A stretch of DNA of 45,379 bases, taken from the IMG/VR virus record IMGVR_UViG_3300035703_000156, positions 1 to 45,379 of that record; one strand, 5' to 3'. The position numbers and the translations under genes are program-made. The notes under the pieces are model-generated. The model saw only the letters and a list, made by a program, of their open reading frames with translations, did not search any database and had not been told where the DNA came from. Shown here in pieces: positions 5,858-44,702 of this stretch. The stretch's first letter is position 1, and the number at the start of each line of letters is the position of its first letter. Source of the stretch: a virus.

Positions 5858-6996
5858 TGCCTTTGCCCGGTAACGTGTCGACGCTCGTCGTGCTCGGCAC
5901 CTTCCTCACGCCCGAGGGCAACCCCTCAACGGGCACGATCACGTTCACGCCGTCGCGGTGGCTGACCAACTCAGGCGCCGATGTCGCCATCCCAAACTCG
6001 AGCGTCACCAAGACCCTCGGCACCGCGGGCAACTTCAGCGTCACCCTGCCCGTCACCGACGATGGCGACCTCCAGCCCGCTAACTGGTTCTACACCGTCA
6101 GCGAGGTCATCGACGGGGTCAGCCAGTCCTATTCGCTCCTGCTGCCGGGCACGGCCGGCACCGGCGGCACCGTCTATCTCGCCGACCTAGCGCCAGCTGC
6201 CGAGCTCGGCCCTGAGTACGCAAGCCTCCGCGGCCCCGAGGGCCTGGCCGCCACCGTCACAGTCGGCACCGTCACGGCCGGCACCGCGGGCGGCACCCCC
6301 ACGGTCACCAACTCCGGCAGCAGCTCCGCAGCCGTGCTCGATTTCGTCCTCATCCCCGGCAACACGGGGCCGCAGGGGCCGCAAGGCGCGACCGGGCCAG
6401 AGGGTCCGACGGGGCCGACGGGGCCGCAGGGTGCGACCGGCGCGACCGGACCGCAGGGTTCAGCAGCGACAGTCACTATCGGCACCATCGGCTTCGTCGA
6501 CTACCCCGGCCCCGGCACCGTCACAAACTCGGGCACGTCCGGCTCGGCGGTCCTTGACTTCGTGCTAGTGCGCGGTCCCCAGGGCGCCATCGGCGACCTC
6601 ACCGCCAGCGACCCCATCGCCTACGTCGGGTCGAACTTCAGCCTCAAGTACGGGGCCGGGCTGGGCACCGCGACAGGCGGCACCCTCGTCGCCGACTTCT
6701 TCGACGGCACTCCCCTGGCGCTCGGCACCGCAGCTGCTGGCACGGCCGTCGAGCTCGCTCGAGGCGACCACGTCCACGCCATGCCCACGGCGTCCGACGT
6801 GGGGGCTGTCGCTAACTCCCTGATTGCGAACAGCAAGGGCGCCTTGATTACGTCTACCGGGTCAGCCGTGGACGACCTCGCGGTCGGCACCGACGGGCAA
6901 GTCCTTACCGCCGATTCAACCCAGACCCTCGGCATCAAATGGGCTGCCCCGTCCGGTGGCGGCGGCCTCGATCCATTCCTACTGATGGGAGCCTGA
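5857..6996 (+). CDS. collagen-like tail fibre (chimeric C-terminus)
   Basis: The protein has 379 aa. The N-terminal domain (1-110) is beta-rich and starts with a strand pattern typical of fibre attachment modules. Residues about 172-203 are Gly-X-Y collagen-like ([13 protein letters not shown]). The segment [19 protein letters not shown] occurs twice in similar form (about 145-165 and 217-235), flanking the collagen part. An HVHAMP motif lies near 307. The last 61 residues are identical to those of the fibre at 40872-41420, because the long direct repeat begins inside this gene at 6811. It probably forms a trimeric fibre between tip and adhesins. The ATG overlaps the upstream TAA. Confidence 0.82.
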
Positions 6997-6999
6997 CCA

Positions 7000-7329
7000 A
7001 TGGCTACTAACTACAAGGTGCTCGGACAGTCGGCACCATCAGCAACGACGGCCACGACCCTGTACACCGTGCCGAGCGCGACTGAGGCCGTGATCTCGAC
7101 GATCTCGGTCTGTAACCGTGGCACAGCTAGCGGCACATTCCGGCTCTCGGTCCGACCTAACGGTGCATCTCTGGCAAATCAGCACTACATCGTGTACGAC
7201 GCGGCACTAGCCGCTAAAGACACCTTGTTCCTGACGGTTGGCGCCACACTTGACGCCTCAGATGTGCTGGAGGTGTACGCCTCCACGGCTGACTTCTCAT
7301 TCAATGCATACGGTTCGGAGATTTCGTAA
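7000..7329 (+). CDS. small tail-tip beta protein, environmental phage family
   Basis: The protein has 109 aa and starts MATNYKVLGQSAP. It is entirely beta-rich with a Thr/Ser/Ala-rich composition and no Cys. I recognise the pattern (VLGQ..P, TLYTVP, ISTISVCNRG, ANQHYIVYD, YASTADFSFN) from small structural proteins found beside fibres of many environmental phages; their exact function is unestablished. It sits 3 bp after the fibre gene and overlaps the Gly-rich adhesin by TAATG. Codon use is less GC-biased than in the replication genes, which fits a mobile tail-tip module. An identical copy lies at 41424-41753. Confidence 0.7.
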   Translation: MATNYKVLGQSAPSATTATTLYTVPSATEAVISTISVCNRGTASGTFRLSVRPNGASLANQHYIVYDAALAAKDTLFLTVGATLDASDVLEVYASTADFSFNAYGSEIS

Positions 7330-8192
7330 TGGGAGTGCTTGCAATCAGCCAAGCAGGGCTTAGCGGCGCAGGCAAGCAGCGAACCCTCAAGCGAGCGAGA
7401 CAGTCGTTCGCTGACGCTACTGGTGGCACCGTGACCGAATCAGGTGGCTATCGAATCCACACCTTTACTGACTCGGGCACATTCACCCCAAATGGGTCCT
7501 TTGACGTTGAGTACATCATCGTTGCTGGCGGCGGTGCCGGCTGTGCCAACGGCGGTGGCGGTGGCGGTGCTGGTGGATACCGCAGCAGTGTGACTGGTGA
7601 GAACTCTGGTGGCGGCTCGGCTGCCGAGTCCAAGGTCACCGTAAGCGGTCAGGCCTACACCGTTGTTGTTGGCGGTGGAGGAGCAGCGAACTCCAGCACG
7701 TCGACAGCAAATAGTGGCAGCAACTCATCATTCGCTGGCGTGGTTTCTACTGGTGGTGGCGGAGCTGCAAACACTCCTGCAACTGGTGGCTCTGGAGGCG
7801 GCTCACGAGAAGCAGCGAACGGTGCCGCAGGTACCTCAGGACAAGGTTATGCAGGTGGAGGTATGCCCGGTGTTAGTCCCTGGCCTTGTGGCGGCGGTGG
7901 TGGTGCTGCGTCAACTGGTGGGACGGCTACGGGAACCGTTGCGGGTAATGGTGGTAACGGCGTAGCCAGCTCAATTACCGGATCGTCAGTCACGCGGGCT
8001 GGCGGCGGTGGCGGTGGAGTCTTCGGAACTGGAACGTCGGGATCGGGAGGATCAGGCGGGGGCGGTGCAGGTGGCACCACTCCGGTTGCCGGTTCAGCAA
8101 ATACAGGCGGCGGCGGTGGTGGATTCACCGGAACCAGCGGAAGCGGTGCAGCGGGCGGCAAAGGTGTCGTCATCATTCGGTACGCGATCTAA
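7329..8192 (+). CDS. glycine-rich adhesin/receptor-binding tail protein
   Basis: The protein has 287 aa. After a short N-terminal segment comes a lead-in TFTDSGTFTPNGSFDVEYIIVAGG, characteristic of Gly-rich phage tail domains, then long Gly-rich runs (GGGGGGAGG and similar) up to the terminal strand KGVVIIRYAI. Gly-rich tracts of this sort pack as polyglycine-II bundles in known adhesins, with variable loops contacting the receptor. Position at the distal end of the tail operon suggests receptor recognition, which is inference. The copy at 41753-42616 is identical, so two different tails would present the same tip. Low-complexity DNA here could confuse read assembly. Confidence 0.75.
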   Translation: MGVLAISQAGLSGAGKQRTLKRARQSFADATGGTVTESGGYRIHTFTDSGTFTPNGSFDVEYIIVAGGGAGCANGGGGGGAGGYRSSVTGENSGGGSAAESKVTVSGQAYTVVVGGGGAANSSTSTANSGSNSSFAGVVSTGGGGAANTPATGGSGGGSREAANGAAGTSGQGYAGGGMPGVSPWPCGGGGGAASTGGTATGTVAGNGGNGVASSITGSSVTRAGGGGGGVFGTGTSGSGGSGGGGAGGTTPVAGSANTGGGGGGFTGTSGSGAAGGKGVVIIRYAI

Positions 8193-8204
8193 GGGGACTG
8201 CACT

Positions 8205-8567
8205 ATGGCCTACTTCGCACAGATAGACAAGGACGGCACCGTCCTGCAAGTGATTAGCGTGAGCAACTCGGACGCCCCCGACCCTGCGCCGGAACACTCT
8301 GAGCCGTTGGGGCAGGCGTTTATAGCGTCGCTTGGGCTGTCGGGTGAGTGGCGGCAGACGTCCTACAACAATAATTTTCGCAAGCAATACTGTGGACCCG
8401 GTTTCCGATACGACGCCGAGGCTGACGTATTCATCGCCCCGCAGCCTTTCCCGTCGTGGAGCCTTGACGCTAATTACGACTGGCAGCCGCCTACGCCGAT
8501 GCCTGCCGAGGGTGGCCCGTGGGCGTGGGACGAGGACACGACCTCATGGGTTGAGTCCGCAATCTAG
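8205..8567 (+). CDS. small fibre-associated protein, environmental phage family
   Basis: The protein has 120 aa and starts MAYFAQIDKDGTVLQVISVSN. The succession SEPLGQAF, WRQTSYNNNFRKQY, GFRYD, FIAPQPFPSW and a Trp-rich C-terminus matches a small protein family I know from many marine and freshwater phages (including T4-like cyanophages) next to tail fibres. Its function is unknown; a fibre tip or fibre-assembly role is inferred from location. A purine-rich GGGGAC lies upstream of the ATG. An identical copy is at 42629-42991. Confidence 0.7.
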   Translation: MAYFAQIDKDGTVLQVISVSNSDAPDPAPEHSEPLGQAFIASLGLSGEWRQTSYNNNFRKQYCGPGFRYDAEADVFIAPQPFPSWSLDANYDWQPPTPMPAEGGPWAWDEDTTSWVESAI

Positions 8568-8603
8568 GGGTTAGACGCACCTGTCCATAACGGAAGGACG
8601 AGC

Positions 8604-8777
8604 ATGGCCCACGATGCCCTGTGCTACTGGTCAACCCACATCGAGCTTGTGCCCGAGGCTTTGGGCGGCTATTCCCGCCGTCAGCAGGAACGGCTACGCG
8701 ACCAGCAGGATGCCCTCTGCCAATGCGACCTCATCGCAAAGGTGAGGACCGACGAGCGGGCCAAGTCCCTAACGTAA
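8604..8777 (+). CDS. small hypothetical Cys-containing protein
   Basis: A 57-codon frame starts at ATG 8604, with GGAAGGACG just upstream as ribosome-binding site. The protein is helical with a CQCDLIAKVRTDER motif. That motif resembles the C-terminal part of the protein at 10263-10709 (CQCLIIAQARADER), suggesting a shared small domain. I do not recognise a function. An identical copy is at 43028-43201. Confidence 0.55.
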   Translation: MAHDALCYWSTHIELVPEALGGYSRRQQERLRDQQDALCQCDLIAKVRTDERAKSLT

Positions 8778-8990
8778 GAGTTGCCGATATCGGCACAGGC
8801 ATTTCTGCGGCACGAGTGTGGCGATATCGACAAGTTGTCGGGATTGCTTCTCATAAGCCGAGCTTGACTTGCGGCGATGAGATGTCAGCCCACCGCGCCA
8901 GCCTTGGCCGTGTAGTAGTACGCCCATAACCGAATAGAACCTCGCGCACGCCCTCGACGTTGTCGGGGGCGTTTCCATTTGGGGAGACAC
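8778..8990. promoter_or_regulatory. non-coding control region before the methyltransferase
   Basis: This 213 bp stretch has no convincing gene. It holds a perfect 14 bp palindrome at 8782-8795 (TGCCGATATCGGCA), a second CGATATCG at 8822-8829 (37 bp from the first, start to start), a 6+6 inverted repeat CGACAA-G-TTGTCG at 8828-8840, and a terminator-like hairpin at 8948-8972. The palindromes look like operator sites, possibly for feedback control of the methyltransferase. No clear -35/-10 pair was found. The same region recurs at 43202-43414. Confidence 0.5.
8948..8972 (+). terminator. hairpin terminator before the methyltransferase
   Basis: An 11 bp stem (one T-G wobble) with a GTT loop: arms 8948-8958 and 8962-8972, followed by GTTTCCATTT. 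The run of T is weak but the stem is strong, so it may end transcription from the fibre operon. It lies only 18 bp before the methyltransferase ATG. Identical copy at 43372-43396. Confidence 0.5.
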
Positions 8991-9782
8991 ATGGAGCCGT
9001 GGCACCACACCGACCAATTCACCCTCTACCGGGGTGAGGCTCTATCCGTCCTTGCCAGCCTCCCTACCGGGAGCGTTGACGCGGTCATCACCGACCCGCC
9101 CTATTCCAGCGGCGGACTCATGCGCAATGACCGCAGCGTCGACCCGTCAGCCAAGTACCGCGGCTGGAGCCAGGACGAGACTGGCAAGAGCGTGGCCCCC
9201 AAAAGCACCTACGACACGTTCACCGGCGACAACAGGGACCAGCGGTCGTACCTATTCTGGTCCGCCCTATGGCTAAGCGAGTGCCTGCGCATCACCAAGC
9301 CCGGTGGCACCCTGCTCACCTTTACCGACTGGCGGCAACTACCCATCTCCAGCGACGCCATCCAAGCGGGCGGCTGGGTCTGGCGAGCCATCGCCGTCTG
9401 GGATAAGGGCGTCGGCAGACCCGTCAAGGGCCGCTTCCGCAACCATGTTGAGTACCTGTTGTGGGCCACCAAAGGCGCCGCCCCACAGCGTGAGGGCGTC
9501 TATCTCAACTCGGTCCTCCGCTACTCAGCCCCCACCCACAAGGACCGGCAACACCTCACCCAAAAGCCCGTCGACCTCCTGCGCTACGTCATGCCCCTAG
9601 TCGAGCCCGGTGGCGTCGTGCTTGACCCCTTCATGGGCTCAGGCACCACGGGGGTCGCCGCGCTCTCAGAGGGCCGCACCTTCATCGGCGTGGAAATGGT
9701 GGACGAATACGCCAACATCGCCCGCGACCGCCTGACAGCAGCAGCCCATGACCAGCAACTCACCCTCGACGCATCGGCCTAG
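8991..9782 (+). CDS. DNA methyltransferase (N6-adenine or N4-cytosine, beta-class order)
   Basis: The protein has 263 aa. The catalytic DPPY motif is at residues 35-38 and the SAM-binding FMGSGTT motif (motif I) is at about 214-220, followed by GVEMVDEY. This IV-then-I order is that of the beta group of amino-methyltransferases. The region between them would hold the target-recognition part. ATG 8991 is chosen over an upstream TTG at 8979 because GGGGAG lies 5 bp before it. No restriction endonuclease is adjacent, so it is an orphan that most likely protects phage DNA from host restriction. The target site is unknown. Identical copy at 43415-44206. Confidence 0.9.
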   Translation: MEPWHHTDQFTLYRGEALSVLASLPTGSVDAVITDPPYSSGGLMRNDRSVDPSAKYRGWSQDETGKSVAPKSTYDTFTGDNRDQRSYLFWSALWLSECLRITKPGGTLLTFTDWRQLPISSDAIQAGGWVWRAIAVWDKGVGRPVKGRFRNHVEYLLWATKGAAPQREGVYLNSVLRYSAPTHKDRQHLTQKPVDLLRYVMPLVEPGGVVLDPFMGSGTTGVAALSEGRTFIGVEMVDEYANIARDRLTAAAHDQQLTLDASA

Positions 9783-9882
9783 CCTCGTCCTCGAACTGCC
9801 GCCCGACCGATGGGTCTACTGCCTCGCCTGCCAGAAACCGTGGCCGTGCGACGACGCACCGCCCGACTCGTGGCGCCCGTAG
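9748..9882 (+). CDS. small Cys-containing protein overlapping the methyltransferase
   Basis: A 44-aa frame starts at ATG 9748, 35 bp inside the 3' end of the methyltransferase in another frame. It contains WVYCLACQKPWPCDD, a CxxC...C cluster. Short proteins with this look are frequent in actinophages and may bind zinc. There is no clear Shine-Dalgarno, so translation would be coupled to the upstream gene. Not recognised beyond that. Identical copy at 44172-44306. Confidence 0.5.
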   Translation: MTSNSPSTHRPSLVLELPPDRWVYCLACQKPWPCDDAPPDSWRP

Positions 9883-9910
9883 TGTCAGCCCCGCGTGCCA
9901 CCCTTGACGC

Positions 9911-10261
9911 ATGACCTCACCATGCAACAATCCCGCCGAAGCGGCCCAGCCTGACGAGTTCTTTCCGGCGTGCCCGACCTGTCATTCACAGGGCCGCCGA
10001 TGCGTGAACCCTGACGGCTCCCTGGCATGGCCCTGGCACACGTCGAGGGCCGTCCTGCGGGATGTGGAGTGGCTGGCCTCGGACCGCGTCGGCATGGGTT
10101 TCACGGACACGCTCAAGGATTCCACCGCGCATGTGGCGGCCTACTTGGCTGGTGTCGCGGACGCCCGCCAGGGCACCGTCGTGGTCGACCCTGACGCGGT
10201 CTTGCCGGACCTCATCGCGGCGCTGGAAATCCTGCGGGAATCCGTAGCGCCTCGGCAATAA
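9911..10261 (+). CDS. small phage zinc-binding domain protein
   Basis: The protein has 116 aa. Residues about 20-45 follow CPxCHSQGRRCxxPDG...WH, the CxxC-x(5-6)-C-x(n)-H pattern of the small zinc-binding domain found in many actinobacterial and actinophage proteins. The rest is helical (about 55-112). A nucleic-acid contact is plausible but not shown. Its TAA ends 7 bp before the right edge of the direct repeat, so the cassette carries this gene intact. Identical copy at 44335-44685. Confidence 0.65.
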   Translation: MTSPCNNPAEAAQPDEFFPACPTCHSQGRRCVNPDGSLAWPWHTSRAVLRDVEWLASDRVGMGFTDTLKDSTAHVAAYLAGVADARQGTVVVDPDAVLPDLIAALEILRESVAPRQ

Positions 10262-10262
10262 C

Positions 10263-10709
10263 TTGCCAGTTACCGTCACGCAATTTCTCGCGTCGCTAAT
10301 CACTTTCGCGACACGCCGCGCTGTCGGTCAGGTCTGCGACCATGAGCTAGTGCAGCATCACCCCAAGTGCCCGATCTACGGCGACCCTAAGTGGGCGCAC
10401 GTCGATGAGTGCGGCCCGTGCGATGTCCTCAACCGGCAAGAGATAGTTACGGCCTTACAGCACGACCCGCTCTGCGCACACCACGGCATCGAAAACCCCG
10501 AAAACGCACCCCAGGGCCCACGTTGCCAATGCCTCATCATCGCCCAGGCGCGCGCGGACGAGCGAGCTGCCTGCGTCAAGATTGTGGAGGGCGCCTACAT
10601 CGTCAACGCCGAGCGGAGCCGTGACTGGAACGTCGGCGTCCGCACGGCGGTCGAATACCTGACCGGCGATTATGAAACGCCGCAACGTCAGACACCTGTG
10701 GCACGATGA
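10263..10709 (+). CDS. hypothetical Cys/His-rich protein at the repeat edge
   Basis: The protein would have 148 aa. The only in-frame start upstream of the Cys-rich part is TTG 10263, within the last 6 bp of the repeat; the frame is closed by TAG at 10245. It contains CDHELVQHHPKCP, CGPCD, CAHHG and CQCLIIAQARADER clusters, suggesting one or two zinc sites, then a helical tail. The gene occurs only after the left repeat copy; the right copy is followed by two much smaller frames. It may be a native gene whose start lies exactly at the junction, or one trimmed by recombination. Function not recognised. Confidence 0.55.
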   Translation: MPVTVTQFLASLITFATRRAVGQVCDHELVQHHPKCPIYGDPKWAHVDECGPCDVLNRQEIVTALQHDPLCAHHGIENPENAPQGPRCQCLIIAQARADERAACVKIVEGAYIVNAERSRDWNVGVRTAVEYLTGDYETPQRQTPVAR

Positions 10710-10787
10710 GCACGTCCATGAGCGAGGACTGAACCTGCTCCGCTGAACCGCCTTGGCTATGGCGGGATCGTCAGTAAATGCCCTGGA

Positions 10788-10808
10788 GCCCCCGACAACC
10801 TCGGGGGC
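10788..10808 (+). terminator. hairpin terminator 1 before lysis genes
   Basis: Perfect 8 bp stem GCCCCCGA/TCGGGGGC with a CAACC loop, followed by TTTGG. The same hairpin with a different loop is found at 44946-44972, indicating that the structure rather than the loop sequence is kept. Confidence 0.6.
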
Positions 10809-10851
10809 TTTGGCATGTCCGTAACTGCTGCGTTGCGATCCGCTACACCCC

Positions 10852-10872
10852 AGCCCCCGACAGTCGGGGGCT
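10852..10872 (+). terminator. hairpin 2 before lysis genes
   Basis: Perfect 9 bp stem AGCCCCCGA/TCGGGGGCT with a CAG loop, followed by TCCCC. It repeats the stem of the hairpin 44 bp upstream. It could be a second terminator or an RNA stability element just before the lysis operon. Confidence 0.5.
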
Positions 10873-10896
10873 TCCCCATATCCAAGGAGCCCACCT

Positions 10897-11175
10897 ATGA
10901 GCGACGGCGTCGTCGTGACACCCGAGGAGATGTTCGCCCTGTTGCGCCGCATTGACGCCACCGTGACGCGCATCTCCCAGGCCGTCGACTCCCTCGACGA
11001 CCGGGTCGCAGACCACGAGGCCCGGCTCCGCGTCATCGAGCAGCGCGAGGACCTGTCCCGCCGAGTCGGCGACATTGAGTCCCGCCTCGCTGCCGTCCAG
11101 TCCCGCGTCTGGGCTTTCCCATCCCTCGCCGGTGTCGCCGCGGTCGTGGCCGTCGCCGTCGCTCTGATCCGCTAG
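10897..11175 (+). CDS. coiled-coil protein with C-terminal membrane anchor, lysis region
   Basis: The protein has 92 aa. Residues about 8-65 are a heptad-rich coiled coil (VDSLDDRVADHEARLRVIE), then a single C-terminal transmembrane helix (about 72-91, VAAVVAVAVALI). AAGGAG precedes the ATG. It is directly upstream of the two-helix holin candidate and the amidase, so a role in lysis timing is likely. The counterpart at 45055-45342 has the membrane segment at the opposite end. Confidence 0.65.
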   Translation: MSDGVVVTPEEMFALLRRIDATVTRISQAVDSLDDRVADHEARLRVIEQREDLSRRVGDIESRLAAVQSRVWAFPSLAGVAAVVAVAVALIR

Positions 11176-11183
11176 GAGAACCC

Positions 11184-11489
11184 ATGCCCGACGGCACCAC
11201 CCAATCCCGCCACCCGTGGCGCGCGACAGCTCGCACCATCTTCGCCGCCGGCGTCGCCCTGCTCACCCTGCTCCCCGTGATCGCCATGACCGCGGGCATC
11301 GACACCGTCCCGGCCGTCGCCCAGGTCCTCCTCGTCGCCGGTGCTGTGACCCGCATCCTCGCCCTGCCTGGGGTGGAGAAGTGGATGGAGCTCTACGTCC
11401 CGTGGCTCGCCGCCTCGCCTGTCGAGGGCATCGCCTCGGACCTGTTCGACATCTTCGGAGACGACGAGGACGAGGAGTGGATGCGCTGA
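11184..11489 (+). CDS. putative holin (two membrane helices)
   Basis: The protein has 101 aa. A basic N-terminus is followed by two hydrophobic segments (about 19-37 and 43-62) and an acidic C-terminus ending DDEDEEWMR. Size, topology and location directly before the endolysin (TGATG overlap) fit an actinophage holin, which would perforate the cytoplasmic membrane to release the amidase. TAGGAGAACCC upstream is a good ribosome-binding site. Confidence 0.7.
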   Translation: MPDGTTQSRHPWRATARTIFAAGVALLTLLPVIAMTAGIDTVPAVAQVLLVAGAVTRILALPGVEKWMELYVPWLAASPVEGIASDLFDIFGDDEDEEWMR

Positions 11490-12271
11490 TGGCGCGCACT
11501 AACATCGCCGACGCCGCCGACATCCTGCGCGCCGCGGGCGTGCCGGTGATCGAGGAGACCTACGTCCAGGGCCCCTACAAGGGCAAGCGCTGGCAGGACG
11601 TCGGCTGGCAGGGCCAGGGCTACCGCGACGTGAAGTTCATCATGTGGCATCACGACGCGAGTCCAACCGGGGACTCACCCGGTGCGCTGTGGTGGATGAT
11701 GAATAACGCCCTCGCCCCGGCCGGTTGCATCTGGGTCTGCTCAGGATGCAACGGCACCCACGCCTCGGGGACCTGGCACCTCATCGCCGGCCGCCTGAGC
11801 AACCACGCCGGCACCGGCGGCCCCGGCTGGGGTGTGATGAAGGACCAGATGAACGCCTACGCGGTAGGCATCGAGACCGATCACACCTACGGCGAGTCGT
11901 GGGCACCGCCCAAGAAGCAAGCCCAGCTCGACTCCCTACGCCTCGGCACCGCGGCGCTGATGAACGCCTACGGCCTCTCGCCTAATCCGTCGCTCCTGCG
12001 GCACCTCGACTGGACTAACGGCATGATCGACGGCGTCCCGCGCCTGCCGACATTCGGTCGCAAGAACGACCTCGACGGCGTCGACATCCACGAGGAGCGC
12101 ATCCGCGTCGCCGCACTCATGCGGACCCTCGGCAAGCCCACCGCCGCCGACCGTATCCGCACGCGCATCGCTCGCCTGATCCGTCAGCGCGACAAGGTCA
12201 AGGCCGAGGGCGGCGACGTGCGCCCACTTACTCAGCGAATCCGAGAGCTGCGCGCCAAGCTGCGCGGCTGA
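11489..12271 (+). CDS. endolysin, N-acetylmuramoyl-L-alanine amidase (Amidase_2/PGRP type)
   Basis: The protein has 260 aa and would cut the amide bond between muramic acid and the peptide stem at the end of infection. Candidate zinc or catalytic residues are in MWHHDAS (about 52-58), GTWHLIAG (about 94-101), SNHAG (about 104-108), an ETDH at about 129-132 and HLDW near 172. Residues 205-260 are basic and helical and may be the wall-binding part; no LysM or PGRP_1 tail is obvious. ATG 11489 overlaps the holin stop; a longer frame from 11216 would run through the holin gene and is rejected. No signal peptide is seen, so export depends on the holin. Confidence 0.85.
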   Translation: MARTNIADAADILRAAGVPVIEETYVQGPYKGKRWQDVGWQGQGYRDVKFIMWHHDASPTGDSPGALWWMMNNALAPAGCIWVCSGCNGTHASGTWHLIAGRLSNHAGTGGPGWGVMKDQMNAYAVGIETDHTYGESWAPPKKQAQLDSLRLGTAALMNAYGLSPNPSLLRHLDWTNGMIDGVPRLPTFGRKNDLDGVDIHEERIRVAALMRTLGKPTAADRIRTRIARLIRQRDKVKAEGGDVRPLTQRIRELRAKLRG

Positions 12272-12293
12272 CCACCACGACCGGGGAGGGACT

Positions 12294-12566
12294 GTGGCAC
12301 TACTCGACGAGCTCACGGCACTACAGACGGCACGACCGAAACCCGGCGGGACACCGTGCCGGATGGCGACGGTCCTCGGGGGTATGAGCCCTGAGGAACG
12401 CGCCGCCCTGGAGCACCTACTTGACGCCACTAGCGTCCAAGCCCCGCAGATCGCGGCGGCCCTAGCGCGCAACGGCTACGAGGTGAACGCCGCACAGATC
12501 GGCCACCACCGTCGCCGCGTCCGAGGTGGCGGGTGCTCCTGTCCCCGACCCGACGAGGTGGCATGA
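12294..12566 (+). CDS. putative DNA-binding protein, actinophage family
   Basis: The protein has 90 aa, starts at GTG 12294 after GGGAGGGACT and overlaps the next gene by ATGA. It has a conserved core of the form CxMxxVLxxMSPEERAALE...L, then a predicted helix-turn-helix (APQIAAALARNGYEVNAAQIGHHRRR) and a C-terminal CSCPRP. I know similar short proteins near early genes of actinophages, where no function is proven. It could bind DNA as a regulator; a small-terminase role is less likely because a better candidate lies at 23810-24253. Confidence 0.55.
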   Translation: MALLDELTALQTARPKPGGTPCRMATVLGGMSPEERAALEHLLDATSVQAPQIAAALARNGYEVNAAQIGHHRRRVRGGGCSCPRPDEVA

Positions 12567-13327
12567 GTCTCCTAGATGACCTCCTGTCGCTAGAGCCCAA
12601 CGATCCGAAAGTCCTTACGCTTGACATTGAGACGAGCCCCAACGTCGTCTACGCCTGGGGCTTGTACGACCAGAACATCGGCATCACCCAAGTCATTGAG
12701 CCAAGCCGCGTCCTATGCGTCGCGGCTAAGTGGCTGGACTCCCCGGACGTGACCTTCCTGTCCGAGTACCACGACGGCCGCCCAGCGATGCTCGCGGGGA
12801 TATGGGACATGGTGAATGAGGCCGACATCGTCGTCGGCTACAACCACGTCAGCTTCGACATGCCGCACCTCAATCGCGAGTGGGTGTCCGCTGACTACGG
12901 CCCGCCGTCGCCGTACAAGAACGTCGACCTCTACCGGGTGAACCGGCAGGCGTTCAAGTTCGCCAGCAACAAGCTCGGCTACGTCACCAACCGGCTCGGG
13001 CTTGACACCAAAATAGAGACAGGCGGCCAGTACCTCTGGAATCGCGTCCTGGCGAATGACCCGGAGGCGTGGGATCTGTTCGCCGACTACAACGTCACCG
13101 ACGTCCGCATCACCGAGGCGCTATTCATGCGCCTGCGCGCGTGGATCAAGTTGCCGCACCTCGGTCTGTGGTCCGGCGAGCTGTCCGACTGCTACGCCTG
13201 CGGAGGCACCGAGCTGACCCCGGCCGGCACGGTCTACGCGACCGCGAACGCCTGGCCCAAGCTCGTATGTGAGGACTGCGGCGCATGGAACAAGGTGCTC
13301 AAGAACGGCCAGACACGCGCGGCATAG
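12563..13327 (+). CDS. 3'-5' exonuclease, DnaQ/DNA-pol-B-exo-like, with zinc ribbon
   Basis: The protein has 254 aa. It carries the three exonuclease motifs: Exo I LDIET (D21, E23), Exo II NHVSFD (N94, D99) and Exo III YNVTD (Y176, D180), i.e. the DEDDy type. A C-terminal zinc ribbon has C210xxC213 and C236xxC239. There is no polymerase domain, so it is a stand-alone nuclease that may edit, trim or degrade DNA, possibly together with the RecT-like protein at 14934. ATG 12563 overlaps the upstream stop; an upstream GTG at 12533 lies inside the previous gene. Confidence 0.82.
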   Translation: MSLLDDLLSLEPNDPKVLTLDIETSPNVVYAWGLYDQNIGITQVIEPSRVLCVAAKWLDSPDVTFLSEYHDGRPAMLAGIWDMVNEADIVVGYNHVSFDMPHLNREWVSADYGPPSPYKNVDLYRVNRQAFKFASNKLGYVTNRLGLDTKIETGGQYLWNRVLANDPEAWDLFADYNVTDVRITEALFMRLRAWIKLPHLGLWSGELSDCYACGGTELTPAGTVYATANAWPKLVCEDCGAWNKVLKNGQTRAA

Positions 13328-13339
13328 AAGGGGAGACCA

Positions 13340-13875: not shown

Positions 13876-13885
13876 CCCACAGACC

Positions 13886-13929: not shown

Positions 13930-13937
13930 ACCCCTAT

Positions 13938-14537: not shown

Positions 14538-14546
14538 CACCTGTCT

Positions 14547-14572: not shown

Positions 14573-14575
14573 CTC

Positions 14576-16790: not shown

Positions 16791-17008
16791 GCGCCTGGTA
16801 CACGGCTAAGCACATTGCCGACGCCGTCGAGCAAGCCATCCGAGCAACCCGAGCCGAGGTCCTTGCCGAGGAACGTGCGCGCGTCCAGCGAGCCATATGG
16901 CTACACGGCAACACGCTCCCCGACCCGCAACAGGCCCAGGCCGTCCTAGAGCTACTACCCCACCTGTACGACACCGCTGAGCGAGTGGAGGCCGACCGTG
17001 TCATCTAA
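16787..17008 (+). CDS. early hypothetical protein
   Basis: The protein has 73 aa. GTG 16787 overlaps the previous TGA (GTGA); an upstream in-frame TTG at 16730 would lie within the previous gene. It is highly charged and helical (VEQAIRATRAEVLAEERARV). Its end overlaps the integrase start by 11 bp. Not recognised. Confidence 0.5.
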   Translation: MSAWYTAKHIADAVEQAIRATRAEVLAEERARVQRAIWLHGNTLPDPQQAQAVLELLPHLYDTAERVEADRVI

Positions 17009-17789
17009 TGCCGAGCTGATCGCCCTGTATGACGCCTATTGCCAGGCCGGGTCTATGTCGGTCAACACGCGCGCGCTCAAGCGCAACTACCTCCAGCGGT
17101 TCGCCCGCGACCATGACCTCCAGACATGCACCGCCCAGGAGATCATCGAGTGGCTGTCGGCTAACCCCGCATGGAAGCCCGCGACCCGTCGCTCCGCGCG
17201 CTCAGCCCTGACCACGTTCTTCTCCTGGGCGCGCAAGATGGGGCACCGCGACGACGACCCGGCCGCCGACACGATGGCCGTCCGCGTCCCTCCCGGTGCG
17301 CCTAAGCCCTGCCCCGAGTCGGTGCTGGAGCACGCCCTCGCCACCGCCGACCCGCGCGGGCGCCTCGCGCTCTTGCTCGGTGCCTACGCCGGGCTACGTC
17401 GTGCCGAGATCGCCGGCCTCCATGCCGACATGATCGACCTGGAGGCCATGACTCTCAGGATTACGGGCAAAGGCGGCCGCGTAAGAGTAGTCCCTATCGC
17501 CGAGGCGCTCGTTGAGCCCATGGCCGAGGCCAAGGCACGGGGCGGCTACCTGTTCCCCAGCGGCGCGAGTCACATCACCCCGACGACTCTCGGGCGTATC
17601 GTCAAGCCCTACCTCGGGCCGGGGCTGTCCACTCACACCCTGAGACACCGTTTCGCTACCCGCGTCTACGCCGGGTCGCGCAACCTGCGCGCGACCCAGG
17701 AGCTCCTCGGCCACGCCAGTATTGCGACGACCGAGCGCTACACCGCGGTCACCGACACGGAGCGCCGCGACGCGGTGGCGGGCCTGTGA
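16998..17789 (+). CDS. tyrosine recombinase/integrase, XerC/D-like
   Basis: The protein has 263 aa. The N-terminal SAM-like DNA-binding part (1-85) is followed by the catalytic domain with R134 (GLRRAEIAGL), K158 (GKGGRVRVV), H213-x-x-R216 (HTLRHRFA), H239 (LLGHAS) and the nucleophile Y248 (TTERYT). All key residues are present. It lacks an arm-binding domain, so it is closer in build to Xer-type recombinases than to lambda integrase. It is embedded in an overlapped operon (11 bp overlap before, GTGA after) with no space for an adjacent attP. It may resolve multimers or integrate at a distant att site. Confidence 0.9.
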   Translation: MSSNAELIALYDAYCQAGSMSVNTRALKRNYLQRFARDHDLQTCTAQEIIEWLSANPAWKPATRRSARSALTTFFSWARKMGHRDDDPAADTMAVRVPPGAPKPCPESVLEHALATADPRGRLALLLGAYAGLRRAEIAGLHADMIDLEAMTLRITGKGGRVRVVPIAEALVEPMAEAKARGGYLFPSGASHITPTTLGRIVKPYLGPGLSTHTLRHRFATRVYAGSRNLRATQELLGHASIATTERYTAVTDTERRDAVAGL

Positions 17790-29497: not shown

Positions 29498-30226
29498 ATG
29501 CGAACGAAAGACAAGGTCTACATCGGTTGGATCGACGGCGGCCAGGTCGAGGGACAATTTGCCGCCGACCTCGCCACCATCACCCTCGGCAGGACGTCGC
29601 GCATCGACGGCCTCCTCCGAGTCGGCGGGCACCTGTTGTCCCGCCAGCGCAATGAGCTCGTGTCGCACTTCCTTGACAGGACGTCGGCACCGTGGCTCCT
29701 GATGATTGACACCGACCACCGCATCCCGGTCGGGTCCTTTGACCGACTCATCGACGCGGCCCACGAGATCAGCGCGCCCGTCGTGTCGGCTCTTTGCTTC
29801 GCGGCCTACCCGCCGCGACCTGGGGACCTCTACCCGACGCCCGTGCCTGCGATCTACAAGCACGCCCAGGGCGCCCAGTACCTCGCATTCAATGACTACC
29901 CGCCCGACCGGCTCGTCCGCGTGGATGCTGCCGGGGGTGGCTGCCTCCTGATGCACCGCTCCGCGCTGGAGAAGGTGCGCGAGATGCGCCCCGATGGCAT
30001 GTCCCCGCGTTGGTGCTTCTTCATTGACGGCCCCGTGGGGGACGACTGGTACTCCGAGGACCTGTCCTTCATGCGCCGCCTGGAGGCGGCCGAGGTCCCG
30101 ATCCACGCGCACACCGGCGCGATCCTGCCCCACCTCAAGACGTACACCCTGACCGACGCGCACCACGCGCAACACATGAAGGAGCTCGCCGATGAGCGCT
30201 CAGGCACAGATCGACGCTCTGCTTGA
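29498..30226 (+). CDS. glycosyltransferase-like protein in the head operon
   Basis: The protein has 242 aa of GT-A type. LLSRQRNELVSHFL is followed by WLLMIDTDHRIP with a DxD at D71 and D73, then VDAAGGGCLLMHRSAL, a SEDLSFMRRLE acidic acceptor-site motif and terminal histidines. These match family-2-like glycosyltransferases. It lies between the capsid and connector genes, which suggests that it modifies a virion protein such as the capsid. Capsid glycosylation by phage-encoded enzymes is known in mycobacteriophages. GGGGAGGGCGTC precedes the ATG. Confidence 0.75.
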   Translation: MRTKDKVYIGWIDGGQVEGQFAADLATITLGRTSRIDGLLRVGGHLLSRQRNELVSHFLDRTSAPWLLMIDTDHRIPVGSFDRLIDAAHEISAPVVSALCFAAYPPRPGDLYPTPVPAIYKHAQGAQYLAFNDYPPDRLVRVDAAGGGCLLMHRSALEKVREMRPDGMSPRWCFFIDGPVGDDWYSEDLSFMRRLEAAEVPIHAHTGAILPHLKTYTLTDAHHAQHMKELADERSGTDRRSA

Positions 30227-37489: not shown

Positions 37490-37662
37490 GTGCCGCCTTC
37501 ACCGAGCCCAGCCCCGACGGCGTCCCCGCGCCTGAGCCCCCCGCAGGCCTGCCCGACTACGAGGCGCTGTCCCCCGCGCGTCGCTCCCCCCAGGTCCGCG
37601 AGGCTCAGCGTCTCGGCTCCCGCCGACCTGACCGTCTGCCTAAGTCCCCCTCGGACGCCTAA
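37486..37662 (+). CDS. small Pro-rich protein in the gpX position
   Basis: The protein has 58 aa, rich in Pro, Arg and Ser (PAPEPPAGLPDYEALSPARR). ATGA and TAATG overlaps couple it to both neighbours. In P2-like phages a LysM protein (gpX) stands here; no LysM pattern is present, so it may be a minimal replacement or a linker peptide. Confidence 0.5.
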   Translation: MSAAFTEPSPDGVPAPEPPAGLPDYEALSPARRSPQVREAQRLGSRRPDRLPKSPSDA

Positions 37663-38516: not shown

Positions 38517-38818
38517 GCCTCCGCTCCGGCTTTCACCGTGGCCTAGTCACCCGAGCCACCTCGGCCGGCGTCTATGTCCAGATGCCAGACCTGTACGGCA
38601 AGGCCGAGATCGGGCCGCTCGACTTCATCGGCCCCAAGCTGCGACGCCCTGCCCGCTCGACCGACTCCGCTAACGGGCCCGACCCGCACACTCACGGCCT
38701 GCCCCAGGTCGACAACGTCGCCGACCGCTTTGCCACCGGGGACCGTGTCCTCGTGGCCGATGTCGGCCCCGGCGACTGGGTCGTCCTCGGCCGCCTTGAG
38801 ACAGGAGCTAACGCATGA
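38513..38818 (+). CDS. baseplate spike/assembly protein (gpV/OB-fold-like)
   Basis: The protein has 101 aa, short for the family. An OB-like beta part (GLVTRATSAGVYVQMPDL) is followed by a PHTHG motif near 60 and GDRVLVADVGPGDWVVLGRL. The HxH could hold a metal ion at the spike tip. ATG 38513 overlaps the hub stop. Confidence 0.65.
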   Translation: MSLRSGFHRGLVTRATSAGVYVQMPDLYGKAEIGPLDFIGPKLRRPARSTDSANGPDPHTHGLPQVDNVADRFATGDRVLVADVGPGDWVVLGRLETGANA

Positions 38819-39117
38819 GCACGACGCTCGCGCATCCCTTCCGGCTTGATAGTGCCGGGAGCGTGGCGATCATCCCGCAGGGCGGGCAGCGTCACGCGCT
38901 GGAGGTCGTCCGGCACGTCGTGTCCTGCCGCCTCGGTGAGCGTCCCCTCGCCCCCGACTGGGGTCTCGCTGACCCCCTCGCGGACGGCGTGGATGAGTCC
39001 GACGTGCGCGCAGCGATTGACCTGTGCGAGCCCGACATCGTCGTCTCCGGCGTCACCTTGACGCCGCGTGACGGCACCGACCTAGACATCGTTATCGACG
39101 CCGCCTGGAGGGCATAG
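38815..39117 (+). CDS. baseplate wedge protein (gp25/gpW-like)
   Basis: The protein has 100 aa. The pattern of a short N-terminal strand, VRHVVSCRLGERPLAPDWG and VSGVTLTPRDGTDLDIVI follows the lysozyme-like gp25/gpW family. It lies between spike and gpJ, as in P2. Confidence 0.82.
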   Translation: MSTTLAHPFRLDSAGSVAIIPQGGQRHALEVVRHVVSCRLGERPLAPDWGLADPLADGVDESDVRAAIDLCEPDIVVSGVTLTPRDGTDLDIVIDAAWRA

Positions 39118-40224
39118 ATGAGCGACCTCGGCCTCTCCCGCGTAGAGCTCACGCCCGACGACCGCGACCCTCAGGCAACATTCGACGCCATGCTGGCGAG
39201 CGTCCAGGCCGCGCTCCCGACGTGGGACGCGCGTAATGGCGCCCTAGAGACGGTCCTCATGGAGGCGTTCGCCACGGGCGCCGCGGACGTGATCTATGCC
39301 TTGAACAGGCTCCCCGGCCGGATCGAGGAGGACATCCTCGCCCTGTACGACGTCGCCCGCTACGCCGGCGCGCGCGCCACCGGGACCGCCGTCATCACCT
39401 GGGACACCTCCCGCACCGAGACCGTCACCGCGGGCCTGCGCTTCGCGGTGCCCGACTCTGACATTGAGCTAGAAGTCACCACCACCACGACCGGCACCGG
39501 CTCCACCCTGAGCGTCCCCGTGCGCGCCACCGAGCCCGGCTCGGCCCCCAACGCCATCGCGTCCGGCGCTGCCCTAGACGTCCTCGACGCCATCCCCTAC
39601 GCCGTGTCCGTCGCCCTCTCGGGCACCCTCACCGGCGGCGCTGACCCCGAGACGGACGCCGCCTACATCGAGCGCGCCTCCACCCGCCTCGCCCGCGTGA
39701 CCTCGTCCCTCGTCGTGCCGGATCACTTCGTCGCCTATGCGCTAGAGAATCCGGCCGTCAAGCGTGCCAAGGCGTACGACCTCTGGGACGGCGTGACCCC
39801 GCTGTCCACCTCGGACCTCGGCTACATCACGGTCGCCATGTACGGCGCTCAGGCCCAGGTCGCCACAGGCACCCGCACCACGATCGAGGGCGAGATGGCC
39901 GAGCGCGCCGCGTCCATGATTACCCCGGTGGTCATCGGTGCCACCCTGACCACGGTGAACGTCGCCGCGACCGTCGTCGCCCTCGCGGGGTATGACACTA
40001 ACGAGGTCCGCGACGCTTGCGTCGCTGCGATCCGCGCGTACATCAACACCGACACCTGGGTCTGGGATGCCTCGGTCATTGACACCGAGATCATCTCCGT
40101 CCTTGACGACGTGCCTGGCGTGGACTACGTCACCTCCGGCAGCGTTACGCCCTCGGGCACGACCACGATCACGACCCCCGCTGGCCTCGCGACGGCAGGC
40201 ACCGTCACGATCACGGTCACATAA
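39118..40224 (+). CDS. baseplate protein J
   Basis: The protein has 368 aa. N-terminal helices with MLASVQAALPTWDARNGAL precede a beta-rich core, a GADPETDAAYIERASTRLARVTS (in part) segment typical of gpJ, and a C-terminal VRDACVAAIRAYINTDTWVWDASVI (in part). It forms the wedge with gpI and gp25-like protein. ATG 39118 follows the previous TAG by one base. Confidence 0.88.
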   Translation: MSDLGLSRVELTPDDRDPQATFDAMLASVQAALPTWDARNGALETVLMEAFATGAADVIYALNRLPGRIEEDILALYDVARYAGARATGTAVITWDTSRTETVTAGLRFAVPDSDIELEVTTTTTGTGSTLSVPVRATEPGSAPNAIASGAALDVLDAIPYAVSVALSGTLTGGADPETDAAYIERASTRLARVTSSLVVPDHFVAYALENPAVKRAKAYDLWDGVTPLSTSDLGYITVAMYGAQAQVATGTRTTIEGEMAERAASMITPVVIGATLTTVNVAATVVALAGYDTNEVRDACVAAIRAYINTDTWVWDASVIDTEIISVLDDVPGVDYVTSGSVTPSGTTTITTPAGLATAGTVTITVT

Positions 40225-40859
40225 TGGGCACCCCGCGCACTGAGGCCCAGGTCGAGGAGTACGTCTACCGGCTCCTGCCCGACTACATCCGCGACGCCGA
40301 CGCGGGCACGCTCGCCACCTTCCTCGGCAAGGCCACAGCCGCCGGCATGGGACCGGCCTTGCGCCTCGTCGACGTCGGCGATCCTGACACCTCGGTCACC
40401 GGAACGGCCGAGCTCGCTAACCCAGACGCCGCCCCTAGGACGTGGCTGCGATGGCTGGGGTGGCTCGTCGGCATTGACCTAGACACGATCCCCGACGCCG
40501 AGAAGCGCGCCGCGATCTCCCAATCGTCGAGCCTCCAGCGCCGCGGCTCCAAGCGCGCCATCATCCGCGCCACCCAGCGCGAGCTGACCGGCTCCAAGTC
40601 CTGCCGCGTCTACTGGAACCTAAGCGGCACCGATCCCTACGTCATCACGGTCGTCACCCTTACCGCGCAAACCCTCGACACCGTGGCAGCCCTCGCGGCC
40701 GCCGTGACCGAGAAGCCCGCCGGGATTGACCTCATCCTCCAAGACGTCACGGGCGCCACCTACGCCGAGCTCGCCGCCGAGTACGCCGACTACGACACGG
40801 TCGCTGCCGCCTTCGATGACTACGACGACCTGGGCGACTGGGTCCCGCCGACCCCCTAG
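40224..40859 (+). CDS. tail protein I (gpI-like)
   Basis: The protein has 211 aa. VEEYVYRLLPDYIRDAD and WLRWLGWLVGIDL, then KRAAISQSSSLQRRGSKRAI match the phage tail protein I pattern. It joins gpJ to the fibres. TAATG overlap with gpJ. Confidence 0.85.
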   Translation: MGTPRTEAQVEEYVYRLLPDYIRDADAGTLATFLGKATAAGMGPALRLVDVGDPDTSVTGTAELANPDAAPRTWLRWLGWLVGIDLDTIPDAEKRAAISQSSSLQRRGSKRAIIRATQRELTGSKSCRVYWNLSGTDPYVITVVTLTAQTLDTVAALAAAVTEKPAGIDLILQDVTGATYAELAAEYADYDTVAAAFDDYDDLGDWVPPTP

Positions 40860-40871
40860 CAAGGAGACAAC

Positions 40872-41420
40872 GTGCCAGACACCACCGCTAAGGGCTTCCC
40901 GTATCCCGAGGGGCCGGACGCCGTCGACGTCGCAGGCGACATCCAAGCGCTCGCCGAGGCTGTCGACGACATGCCCGGCGTCCAGTCCTACACCGCGACC
41001 GAGATCACTAACCTCGCGGTCGGCGAGAAGTGGGCCGGCCGCATCGTCTGGAACAGCACCGCGGGTAAGCTCCAGGTGTCCAACGGCTCGACCTTCTCCG
41101 ACGTCGACACCTCGGTCGCCCTGGCCTCGACTAACCCCGCGGCCCTCGGCGTGGCCGCCCCCGGCAACGGCACGACGGCAGCTCGGGATAATCACGTCCA
41201 CGCCATGCCCAGCGCGGCCGACGTCGGCGCGGTTGCTAACTCCCTGATTGCGAACAGCAAGGGCGCCTTGATTACGTCTACCGGGTCAGCCGTGGACGAC
41301 CTCGCGGTCGGCACCGACGGGCAAGTCCTTACCGCCGATTCAACCCAGACCCTCGGCATCAAATGGGCTGCCCCGTCCGGTGGCGGCGGCCTCGATCCAT
41401 TCCTACTGATGGGAGCCTGA
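40872..41420 (+). CDS. tail fibre, chimeric with shared C-terminus
   Basis: The protein has 182 aa and starts at GTG 40872 after AAGGAGACAAC. The first 120 residues are specific to this phage: a short KGFPYPEGPDAVDV attachment piece, then a beta region, then DNHVHAMPS near 114. The last 61 residues (from base 41235) are identical to those of the fibre at 5857-6996, because the repeat starts here. The HVHAMP motif is shared by both genes just upstream of the join. Confidence 0.82.
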   Translation: MPDTTAKGFPYPEGPDAVDVAGDIQALAEAVDDMPGVQSYTATEITNLAVGEKWAGRIVWNSTAGKLQVSNGSTFSDVDTSVALASTNPAALGVAAPGNGTTAARDNHVHAMPSAADVGAVANSLIANSKGALITSTGSAVDDLAVGTDGQVLTADSTQTLGIKWAAPSGGGGLDPFLLMGA

Positions 41421-41423
41421 CCA

Positions 41424-41753
41424 ATGGCTACTAACTACAAGGTGCTCGGACAGTCGGCACCATCAGCAACGACGGCCACGACCCTGTACACCGTGCCGAG
41501 CGCGACTGAGGCCGTGATCTCGACGATCTCGGTCTGTAACCGTGGCACAGCTAGCGGCACATTCCGGCTCTCGGTCCGACCTAACGGTGCATCTCTGGCA
41601 AATCAGCACTACATCGTGTACGACGCGGCACTAGCCGCTAAAGACACCTTGTTCCTGACGGTTGGCGCCACACTTGACGCCTCAGATGTGCTGGAGGTGT
41701 ACGCCTCCACGGCTGACTTCTCATTCAATGCATACGGTTCGGAGATTTCGTAA
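41424..41753 (+). CDS. small tail-tip beta protein, copy 2
   Basis: Identical 109-aa protein to that at 7000-7329 (environmental phage family, beta-rich). Here it follows a myophage fibre, so the same accessory tip protein serves a contractile tail. Confidence 0.7.
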   Translation: MATNYKVLGQSAPSATTATTLYTVPSATEAVISTISVCNRGTASGTFRLSVRPNGASLANQHYIVYDAALAAKDTLFLTVGATLDASDVLEVYASTADFSFNAYGSEIS

Positions 41754-42616
41754 TGGGAGTGCTTGCAATCAGCCAAGCAGGGCTTAGCGGCGCAGGCAAG
41801 CAGCGAACCCTCAAGCGAGCGAGACAGTCGTTCGCTGACGCTACTGGTGGCACCGTGACCGAATCAGGTGGCTATCGAATCCACACCTTTACTGACTCGG
41901 GCACATTCACCCCAAATGGGTCCTTTGACGTTGAGTACATCATCGTTGCTGGCGGCGGTGCCGGCTGTGCCAACGGCGGTGGCGGTGGCGGTGCTGGTGG
42001 ATACCGCAGCAGTGTGACTGGTGAGAACTCTGGTGGCGGCTCGGCTGCCGAGTCCAAGGTCACCGTAAGCGGTCAGGCCTACACCGTTGTTGTTGGCGGT
42101 GGAGGAGCAGCGAACTCCAGCACGTCGACAGCAAATAGTGGCAGCAACTCATCATTCGCTGGCGTGGTTTCTACTGGTGGTGGCGGAGCTGCAAACACTC
42201 CTGCAACTGGTGGCTCTGGAGGCGGCTCACGAGAAGCAGCGAACGGTGCCGCAGGTACCTCAGGACAAGGTTATGCAGGTGGAGGTATGCCCGGTGTTAG
42301 TCCCTGGCCTTGTGGCGGCGGTGGTGGTGCTGCGTCAACTGGTGGGACGGCTACGGGAACCGTTGCGGGTAATGGTGGTAACGGCGTAGCCAGCTCAATT
42401 ACCGGATCGTCAGTCACGCGGGCTGGCGGCGGTGGCGGTGGAGTCTTCGGAACTGGAACGTCGGGATCGGGAGGATCAGGCGGGGGCGGTGCAGGTGGCA
42501 CCACTCCGGTTGCCGGTTCAGCAAATACAGGCGGCGGCGGTGGTGGATTCACCGGAACCAGCGGAAGCGGTGCAGCGGGCGGCAAAGGTGTCGTCATCAT
42601 TCGGTACGCGATCTAA
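41753..42616 (+). CDS. glycine-rich adhesin, copy 2
   Basis: Identical 287-aa protein to that at 7329-8192. See that entry for domains. Its identity to the other copy, despite low-complexity Gly codons that usually drift, shows the event was very recent or an artefact. Confidence 0.75.
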   Translation: MGVLAISQAGLSGAGKQRTLKRARQSFADATGGTVTESGGYRIHTFTDSGTFTPNGSFDVEYIIVAGGGAGCANGGGGGGAGGYRSSVTGENSGGGSAAESKVTVSGQAYTVVVGGGGAANSSTSTANSGSNSSFAGVVSTGGGGAANTPATGGSGGGSREAANGAAGTSGQGYAGGGMPGVSPWPCGGGGGAASTGGTATGTVAGNGGNGVASSITGSSVTRAGGGGGGVFGTGTSGSGGSGGGGAGGTTPVAGSANTGGGGGGFTGTSGSGAAGGKGVVIIRYAI

Positions 42617-42628
42617 GGGGACTGCACT

Positions 42629-42991
42629 ATGGCCTACTTCGCACAGATAGACAAGGACGGCACCGTCCTGCAAGTGATTAGCGTGAGCAACTCGGACGCC
42701 CCCGACCCTGCGCCGGAACACTCTGAGCCGTTGGGGCAGGCGTTTATAGCGTCGCTTGGGCTGTCGGGTGAGTGGCGGCAGACGTCCTACAACAATAATT
42801 TTCGCAAGCAATACTGTGGACCCGGTTTCCGATACGACGCCGAGGCTGACGTATTCATCGCCCCGCAGCCTTTCCCGTCGTGGAGCCTTGACGCTAATTA
42901 CGACTGGCAGCCGCCTACGCCGATGCCTGCCGAGGGTGGCCCGTGGGCGTGGGACGAGGACACGACCTCATGGGTTGAGTCCGCAATCTAG
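42629..42991 (+). CDS. small fibre-associated protein, copy 2
   Basis: Identical 120-aa protein to that at 8205-8567. Confidence 0.7.
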   Translation: MAYFAQIDKDGTVLQVISVSNSDAPDPAPEHSEPLGQAFIASLGLSGEWRQTSYNNNFRKQYCGPGFRYDAEADVFIAPQPFPSWSLDANYDWQPPTPMPAEGGPWAWDEDTTSWVESAI

Positions 42992-43027
42992 GGGTTAGAC
43001 GCACCTGTCCATAACGGAAGGACGAGC

Positions 43028-43201
43028 ATGGCCCACGATGCCCTGTGCTACTGGTCAACCCACATCGAGCTTGTGCCCGAGGCTTTGGGCGGCTATTCCC
43101 GCCGTCAGCAGGAACGGCTACGCGACCAGCAGGATGCCCTCTGCCAATGCGACCTCATCGCAAAGGTGAGGACCGACGAGCGGGCCAAGTCCCTAACGTA
43201 A
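43028..43201 (+). CDS. small hypothetical protein, copy 2
   Basis: Identical 57-aa frame to that at 8604-8777, with the same GGAAGGACG upstream. Confidence 0.55.
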   Translation: MAHDALCYWSTHIELVPEALGGYSRRQQERLRDQQDALCQCDLIAKVRTDERAKSLT

Positions 43202-43414
43202 GAGTTGCCGATATCGGCACAGGCATTTCTGCGGCACGAGTGTGGCGATATCGACAAGTTGTCGGGATTGCTTCTCATAAGCCGAGCTTGACTTGCGGCG
43301 ATGAGATGTCAGCCCACCGCGCCAGCCTTGGCCGTGTAGTAGTACGCCCATAACCGAATAGAACCTCGCGCACGCCCTCGACGTTGTCGGGGGCGTTTCC
43401 ATTTGGGGAGACAC
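43202..43414. promoter_or_regulatory. control region before methyltransferase, copy 2
   Basis: Same palindromes as at 8778-8990, here at 43206-43219 (TGCCGATATCGGCA) and 43252-43264 (CGACAA-G-TTGTCG), and the hairpin at 43372-43396. Confidence 0.5.
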
Positions 43415-44206
43415 ATGGAGCCGTGGCACCACACCGACCAATTCACCCTCTACCGGGGTGAGGCTCTATCCGTCCTTGCCAGCCTCCCTACCGGGAGCGT
43501 TGACGCGGTCATCACCGACCCGCCCTATTCCAGCGGCGGACTCATGCGCAATGACCGCAGCGTCGACCCGTCAGCCAAGTACCGCGGCTGGAGCCAGGAC
43601 GAGACTGGCAAGAGCGTGGCCCCCAAAAGCACCTACGACACGTTCACCGGCGACAACAGGGACCAGCGGTCGTACCTATTCTGGTCCGCCCTATGGCTAA
43701 GCGAGTGCCTGCGCATCACCAAGCCCGGTGGCACCCTGCTCACCTTTACCGACTGGCGGCAACTACCCATCTCCAGCGACGCCATCCAAGCGGGCGGCTG
43801 GGTCTGGCGAGCCATCGCCGTCTGGGATAAGGGCGTCGGCAGACCCGTCAAGGGCCGCTTCCGCAACCATGTTGAGTACCTGTTGTGGGCCACCAAAGGC
43901 GCCGCCCCACAGCGTGAGGGCGTCTATCTCAACTCGGTCCTCCGCTACTCAGCCCCCACCCACAAGGACCGGCAACACCTCACCCAAAAGCCCGTCGACC
44001 TCCTGCGCTACGTCATGCCCCTAGTCGAGCCCGGTGGCGTCGTGCTTGACCCCTTCATGGGCTCAGGCACCACGGGGGTCGCCGCGCTCTCAGAGGGCCG
44101 CACCTTCATCGGCGTGGAAATGGTGGACGAATACGCCAACATCGCCCGCGACCGCCTGACAGCAGCAGCCCATGACCAGCAACTCACCCTCGACGCATCG
44201 GCCTAG
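43415..44206 (+). CDS. DNA methyltransferase, copy 2
   Basis: Identical 263-aa protein to that at 8991-9782, with DPPY at 35-38 and FMGSGTT at about 214-220. Two copies would be redundant in one genome, which favours the view that two genomes are joined here. Confidence 0.9.
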   Translation: MEPWHHTDQFTLYRGEALSVLASLPTGSVDAVITDPPYSSGGLMRNDRSVDPSAKYRGWSQDETGKSVAPKSTYDTFTGDNRDQRSYLFWSALWLSECLRITKPGGTLLTFTDWRQLPISSDAIQAGGWVWRAIAVWDKGVGRPVKGRFRNHVEYLLWATKGAAPQREGVYLNSVLRYSAPTHKDRQHLTQKPVDLLRYVMPLVEPGGVVLDPFMGSGTTGVAALSEGRTFIGVEMVDEYANIARDRLTAAAHDQQLTLDASA

Positions 44207-44306
44207 CCTCGTCCTCGAACTGCCGCCCGACCGATGGGTCTACTGCCTCGCCTGCCAGAAACCGTGGCCGTGCGACGACGCACCGCCCGACTCGTGGCGC
44301 CCGTAG
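44172..44306 (+). CDS. small Cys-containing protein, copy 2
   Basis: Identical 44-aa frame to that at 9748-9882, overlapping the methyltransferase end. Confidence 0.5.
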   Translation: MTSNSPSTHRPSLVLELPPDRWVYCLACQKPWPCDDAPPDSWRP

Positions 44307-44334
44307 TGTCAGCCCCGCGTGCCACCCTTGACGC

Positions 44335-44685
44335 ATGACCTCACCATGCAACAATCCCGCCGAAGCGGCCCAGCCTGACGAGTTCTTTCCGGCGTGCCCG
44401 ACCTGTCATTCACAGGGCCGCCGATGCGTGAACCCTGACGGCTCCCTGGCATGGCCCTGGCACACGTCGAGGGCCGTCCTGCGGGATGTGGAGTGGCTGG
44501 CCTCGGACCGCGTCGGCATGGGTTTCACGGACACGCTCAAGGATTCCACCGCGCATGTGGCGGCCTACTTGGCTGGTGTCGCGGACGCCCGCCAGGGCAC
44601 CGTCGTGGTCGACCCTGACGCGGTCTTGCCGGACCTCATCGCGGCGCTGGAAATCCTGCGGGAATCCGTAGCGCCTCGGCAATAA
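44335..44685 (+). CDS. small phage zinc-binding domain protein, copy 2
   Basis: Identical 116-aa protein to that at 9911-10261. The repeat ends 7 bp after its TAA; what follows differs from the left copy. Confidence 0.65.
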   Translation: MTSPCNNPAEAAQPDEFFPACPTCHSQGRRCVNPDGSLAWPWHTSRAVLRDVEWLASDRVGMGFTDTLKDSTAHVAAYLAGVADARQGTVVVDPDAVLPDLIAALEILRESVAPRQ

Positions 44686-44702
44686 CTTGCCAATTACAGC
44701 CA

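Follow-up and report, generated by a model that had tools for sequence, protein, structure and literature searches.

The viral record analysed here (IMG/VR record IMGVR_UViG_3300035703_000156; the window is the entire record, 45,379 bp in length and of class 'linear') is very probably an assembly chimera of two co-occurring temperate actinobacterial phages, which would have a cassette, here called R, in common. Phage A would be a myophage that assembles as a 34,424-bp circle and phage B a siphophage, of which the record contains only about 11 kb. Directly observed are the identity of the two copies of R over their full length and their position, the two native orders in which the components occur separately among relatives, and the equality of k-mers described below. 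A first-pass annotation of the same DNA had recognised a myophage period set inside siphophage flanks, an anatomy that is correct, and had proposed two causes for it, namely a join made by an assembler or a true cointegrate of two phages. Relatives, k-mers and an assembly fork in another metagenome argue for the former, whereas the latter has no distinguishing k-mer in its favour.

Comparison of the window with itself confirms the repeat pair of the first-pass annotation: positions 6811-10268 and 41235-44692 match base for base (100%) across exactly 3458 bp, with an offset of 34,424 bp between them. To the left of R similarity persists for 42 bp, with 35/42 bases matching inside a conserved fibre motif, and to the right an intergenic stretch a few hundred bases beyond R is 88% alike over 152 bp. 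The repeat and the similarity that flanks it are well above chance level, and the fibre genes of both phages cross the left end of R in frame. In terms of gene content, R is a host-recognition and methyltransferase cassette of the tail-tip type (Table 1), and not a lysis cassette, given that it carries fibre, adhesin and methyltransferase genes and that the amidase gene lies outside it. A 44-aa ORF of R (MTSNSPSTHRPSLVLELPPDRWVYCLACQKPWPCDDAPPDSWRP), cysteine-bearing and read in another frame, overlaps the end of the methyltransferase gene and is near-invariant in the siphophage loci L085, L091, L092 and L094, though the surrounding cassette is very variable. A search of Rfam gave no matches.

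Table 1. Features of the 45,379-bp window (positions counted from its first base).
Feature	Position	Strand	Remarks
Siphophage left flank	1-6810	+	tail genes
Tape measure, C-terminal part	90-1991		left flank
Dit-like	1984-2637		left flank
Gp37-like tail protein	2634-4451		left flank; Sipho_Gp37 family
Tail fibre, J-like	4448-5857		left flank
Collagen-like fibre	5857-6996		left flank; C-terminal end within R
Repeat R, copy 1	6811-10268	+	fibre C-terminus to 116-aa protein
109-aa fibre-type protein			R
Glycine-rich adhesin-type protein	7329-8192		R
120-aa protein	8205-8567		R
N6/N4 DNA methyltransferase	8979-9782		R; phrog_67
44-aa ORF	9748-9882		R; copy 2 at 44172-44306
116-aa protein	9911-10261		R
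Unique myophage part	10269-41234	+	amidase to start of fibre; collinear with the closed myophage relative G001
Homologous intergenic stretch	10687-10838	+	88% to 44848-44999; just past right end of R
Amidase	11216-12271		phage A
Integrase	16998-17789		phage A
Repeat R, copy 2	41235-44692	+	equal to copy 1; extends myophage fibre gene 40872-41420 in frame
Siphophage right flank	44693-45379	+	45006-45379 follows cassette in many siphophage relatives

The outer flanks belong to a siphophage tail, as previously noted, with the C-terminus of the tape measure, Dit, Gp37-like and fibre genes on the left side. Matches to the left flank in IMG/VR comprise 33 loci, mostly at 70-90% protein identity. Where these loci are of sufficient length for the order to be read, as in L085, L086, L090, L091, L094, L098 and L106, the left flank is followed by the cassette and then by the equivalent of window positions 45006-45379. 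The same layout of left flank, cassette and right flank is found in two siphophage genomes with terminal overlaps, G003 (34,665 bp, overlap of 123 bp) and G004 (33,063 bp, overlap of 127 bp).

The period between the repeats carries, besides amidase and integrase, genes for an exonuclease, RecT, RusA, TerL, portal, a protease-capsid fusion, connectors, sheath, tube, chaperone, tape measure, baseplate and the start of a fibre. Its description as one complete myophage genome holds, as the closed relative G001, a genome of 34,211 bp whose ends overlap exactly over 127 bp, is collinear with the circle in full (10815-41230). The myophage baseplate has nine strongly matching loci in IMG/VR (82-94%), and the relatives L118, L119 and L123 show the order of window positions 29k-41230, cassette, and 10787-10822 onward. 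Within this part, the 740-aa ORF at 27176-29398 matches a head maturation protease as well as a major capsid protein, which suggests a natural fusion, and a glycosyltransferase gene (29498-30226) lies between the capsid and connector genes; the siphophage G004 has a glycosyltransferase gene of its own, of a different family (phrog_2170). The exonuclease gene (12533-13327) is 81-86% identical in protein to that of siphophage relatives, where it is located shortly after the region corresponding to 45379; the myophages G001 and G002 lack it at the corresponding position, and in L140 it has a collinear context. Such a distribution points to a further exchange between the myophage and siphophage groups.

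To judge from the closed relatives G001, G003 and G004, each of which holds one type, both phage types exist as separate genomes of 33-35 kb, these relatives standing at about 80% DNA identity and not being the very parents of the record. A terminal overlap of k-mer length is the sign that the template was circular and was broken during assembly (CheckV, PMC8116208). A few siphophages have head or exonuclease genes in common with the myophage, without a contractile tail. For example, the 35-kb siphophage record G006 (L134/L135) has terminase, portal and capsid genes at 67-75% DNA identity to those of the myophage and, on this evidence, head genes would be common to both tail types. Three metagenomes (3300037502, 3300035670 and 3300032335) each contain both phage types, so the conditions for an assembly tangle of this kind are common. 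As for R itself, an exact search of IMG/VR with two 33-base pieces, which may pass over records very close to the window, gave no matches, phage GenBank records gave short matches only, and a search for relatives of the methyltransferase returned one contig at 58% identity, uninformative as to gene context.

The k-mer content of the window can be accounted for entirely by two simple molecules. Specifically, the k-mer set of the record is the one given by a 34,424-bp circle (R plus A) together with a 10,955-bp linear molecule, B_left-R-B_right, at 11/11 values of k from 31 to 3459, and at k of 55 or more all repeated k-mers come from R. Among k-mers up to 3458 bases, this comparison found none specific to the joined order. 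Therefore, the record amounts to a single walk through a simple loop at a repeat, and its sequence by itself gives a cointegrate no support. Assemblers of the SPAdes family settle such two-edge loops by a coverage-based step. The course of events would be as follows: the source data would be short reads, with R longer than the short-read insert; the 3458-bp R would be present in A and in B, in identical or near-identical form; and the graph would run from B_left through R to B_right, with A as a loop that leaves R at its end and re-enters it at its start. By taking this loop, the assembler would have output the walk B_left-R-A-R-B_right.

A comparable situation is encountered in metagenome 3300035670, where a myophage contig (L116) and a siphophage contig (L105) have 103 exact bases in common, in a stretch that starts at most a few bases from the homologous counterpart of the left R boundary. 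Past this site L116 ends at 127 bp, L105 at 106 bp and a second siphophage contig, L082, at 124 bp; in addition, an exact scan places copies of their cassette at the ends of L116 and L105 and nowhere else. This metagenome thus appears to hold the same fork, but unjoined. In the whole set of relatives, 6 of 32 contig ends lie in a span of 200 bp at the junction, where a uniform spread over 13 kb would put about 0.5 (Poisson tail about 1e-5); as 4 of the 6 come from one metagenome and the count was made post hoc, the clustering serves as supporting evidence only.

A real cointegrate, produced by one crossover in R between circular A and B in a co-infected cell or in the prophage of a lysogen, would account for the same layout, since a single crossover predicts exactly B_left-R-A-R-B_right, and a complete, circularly closed genome is indeed found between direct repeats within another phage. 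Moreover, A and B are both integrase-bearing temperate types, apparently of the same kind of host, their similarity extends past R on either side, and RecT is among the proteins of A. Nevertheless, we consider this origin very improbable. The joined molecule would measure about 68 kb (about 34.4 plus 33-34.5 kb), twice the size of the parents' relatives, and should exceed one capsid; both tail types are joined in 0 of the 38 relative records searched in full or compared directly; a single crossover alone leaves the identity of the R copies unexplained; and the k-mer set offers nothing specific to it. A literature search on phage cointegrates, with most subscription papers outside its reach, returned no matching case. 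Were such a molecule present, which is just as improbable, it would be as a prophage or replication intermediate formed via the tail-tip cassette.

The least probable reading is a deeper chimera, in which the cassette of A or of B would be another one, or identical only in part, and a collapse of strains by the assembler would have equalised the copies of R. Cassettes do differ strongly among relatives, the methyltransferase at this place in G001 being unrelated, and the closest DNA relatives of R are siphophage, with a G+C of R (0.628) nearer to that of B (0.645) than to that of the unique part of A (0.681). However, the cassette of G001 likewise has a low G+C (0.609 vs 0.671), so that a low value is usual there, and a close relative of the R fibre end occupies its native place in the myophage L123. 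Two further candidates were discarded. Terminal redundancy of A is contradicted by L118/G001, L119/G002 and L123, in which the cassette is single and internal, at a site between baseplate/fibre and lysis genes. Likewise, insertion of A into B by its integrase does not agree with a 3458-bp repeat that starts inside a fibre gene, 6.7 kb away from the integrase; the window has no tRNA.

Returning to the chimeric assembly of two phages, R was most likely carried by both phages in the sample, because the graph loop needs reads linking A and B to R. In other words, the possession of an identical 3.5-kb adhesin/methyltransferase cassette by contractile- and flexible-tailed temperate phages of the same samples is probably real, and cassette sharing of this sort represents a type of mosaicism that is already known. 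For R, the best reading is a recent exchange by homology between A and B, in view of the 100% identity inside R and of flanks that are 78-88% alike at its ends. The likeliest direction of this exchange would be from siphophage to myophage. With respect to R, the siphophage L090 has the 109-aa protein at 93% and the 120-aa protein at 82% identity, and at the corresponding position a related fibre end occurs in myophage relatives (L123, 78%). At the cassette position the myophage G001 carries a methyltransferase of phrog_363 (L127:8065-9285), different from that of the window, and the cassette would thus appear to exchange methyltransferases together with fibre tips. Regarding the host, the sheath protein matches one prophage-like contig among bacterial genomes, in an Actinomycetota MAG, at 54% identity (a clue at phylum level only), and a siphophage relative has a gene for an Lsr2-like protein; for these reasons, an actinobacterial host is probable.

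Accepted as it stands, the record would be mistaken for a hybrid of two morphotypes, distorting classification as well as genome-size and host-range statistics. As the junction is also a break point in another metagenome, the artefact is likely recurrent and can be searched for. A k-mer-frequency check on this record would give an excess of just 8%. If the record came from a long-read assembly, on the other hand, the order would be real.

Campbell-type single-crossover integration leaves a whole circular genome between direct repeats of the crossover region. The layout of the record is the same, but the joined molecule is without support and its size lies beyond what either phage would package. 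Repeats are known to give rise to chimeric phage contigs (Phables, PMC10563150). A point against the assembly reading is that chimeric joins are described as rare in curated work (Chen et al. 2020, PMC7111523). With the concatenated or chimeric contigs described so far (CheckV, PMC8116208; PMC7111523; Phables, PMC10563150) the record shares excessive length and a repeated segment; in those systems, however, a single genome is repeated, whereas here two different phages would be joined via a common cassette. It is established that diverged temperate phages exchange mosaic segments by recombinases of the RecT/Redbeta type (De Paepe et al. 2014, PMC3945230). As in that exchange of tail-fibre and host-range cassettes, a near-identical segment is bordered by flanks of lower but above-background similarity and an annealing protein of the RecT type is encoded; the present partners differ from those cases in tail morphotype, and R, with its 3.46 kb, exceeds the median mosaic of 404 bp in E. 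coli temperate phages (PMC3945230).
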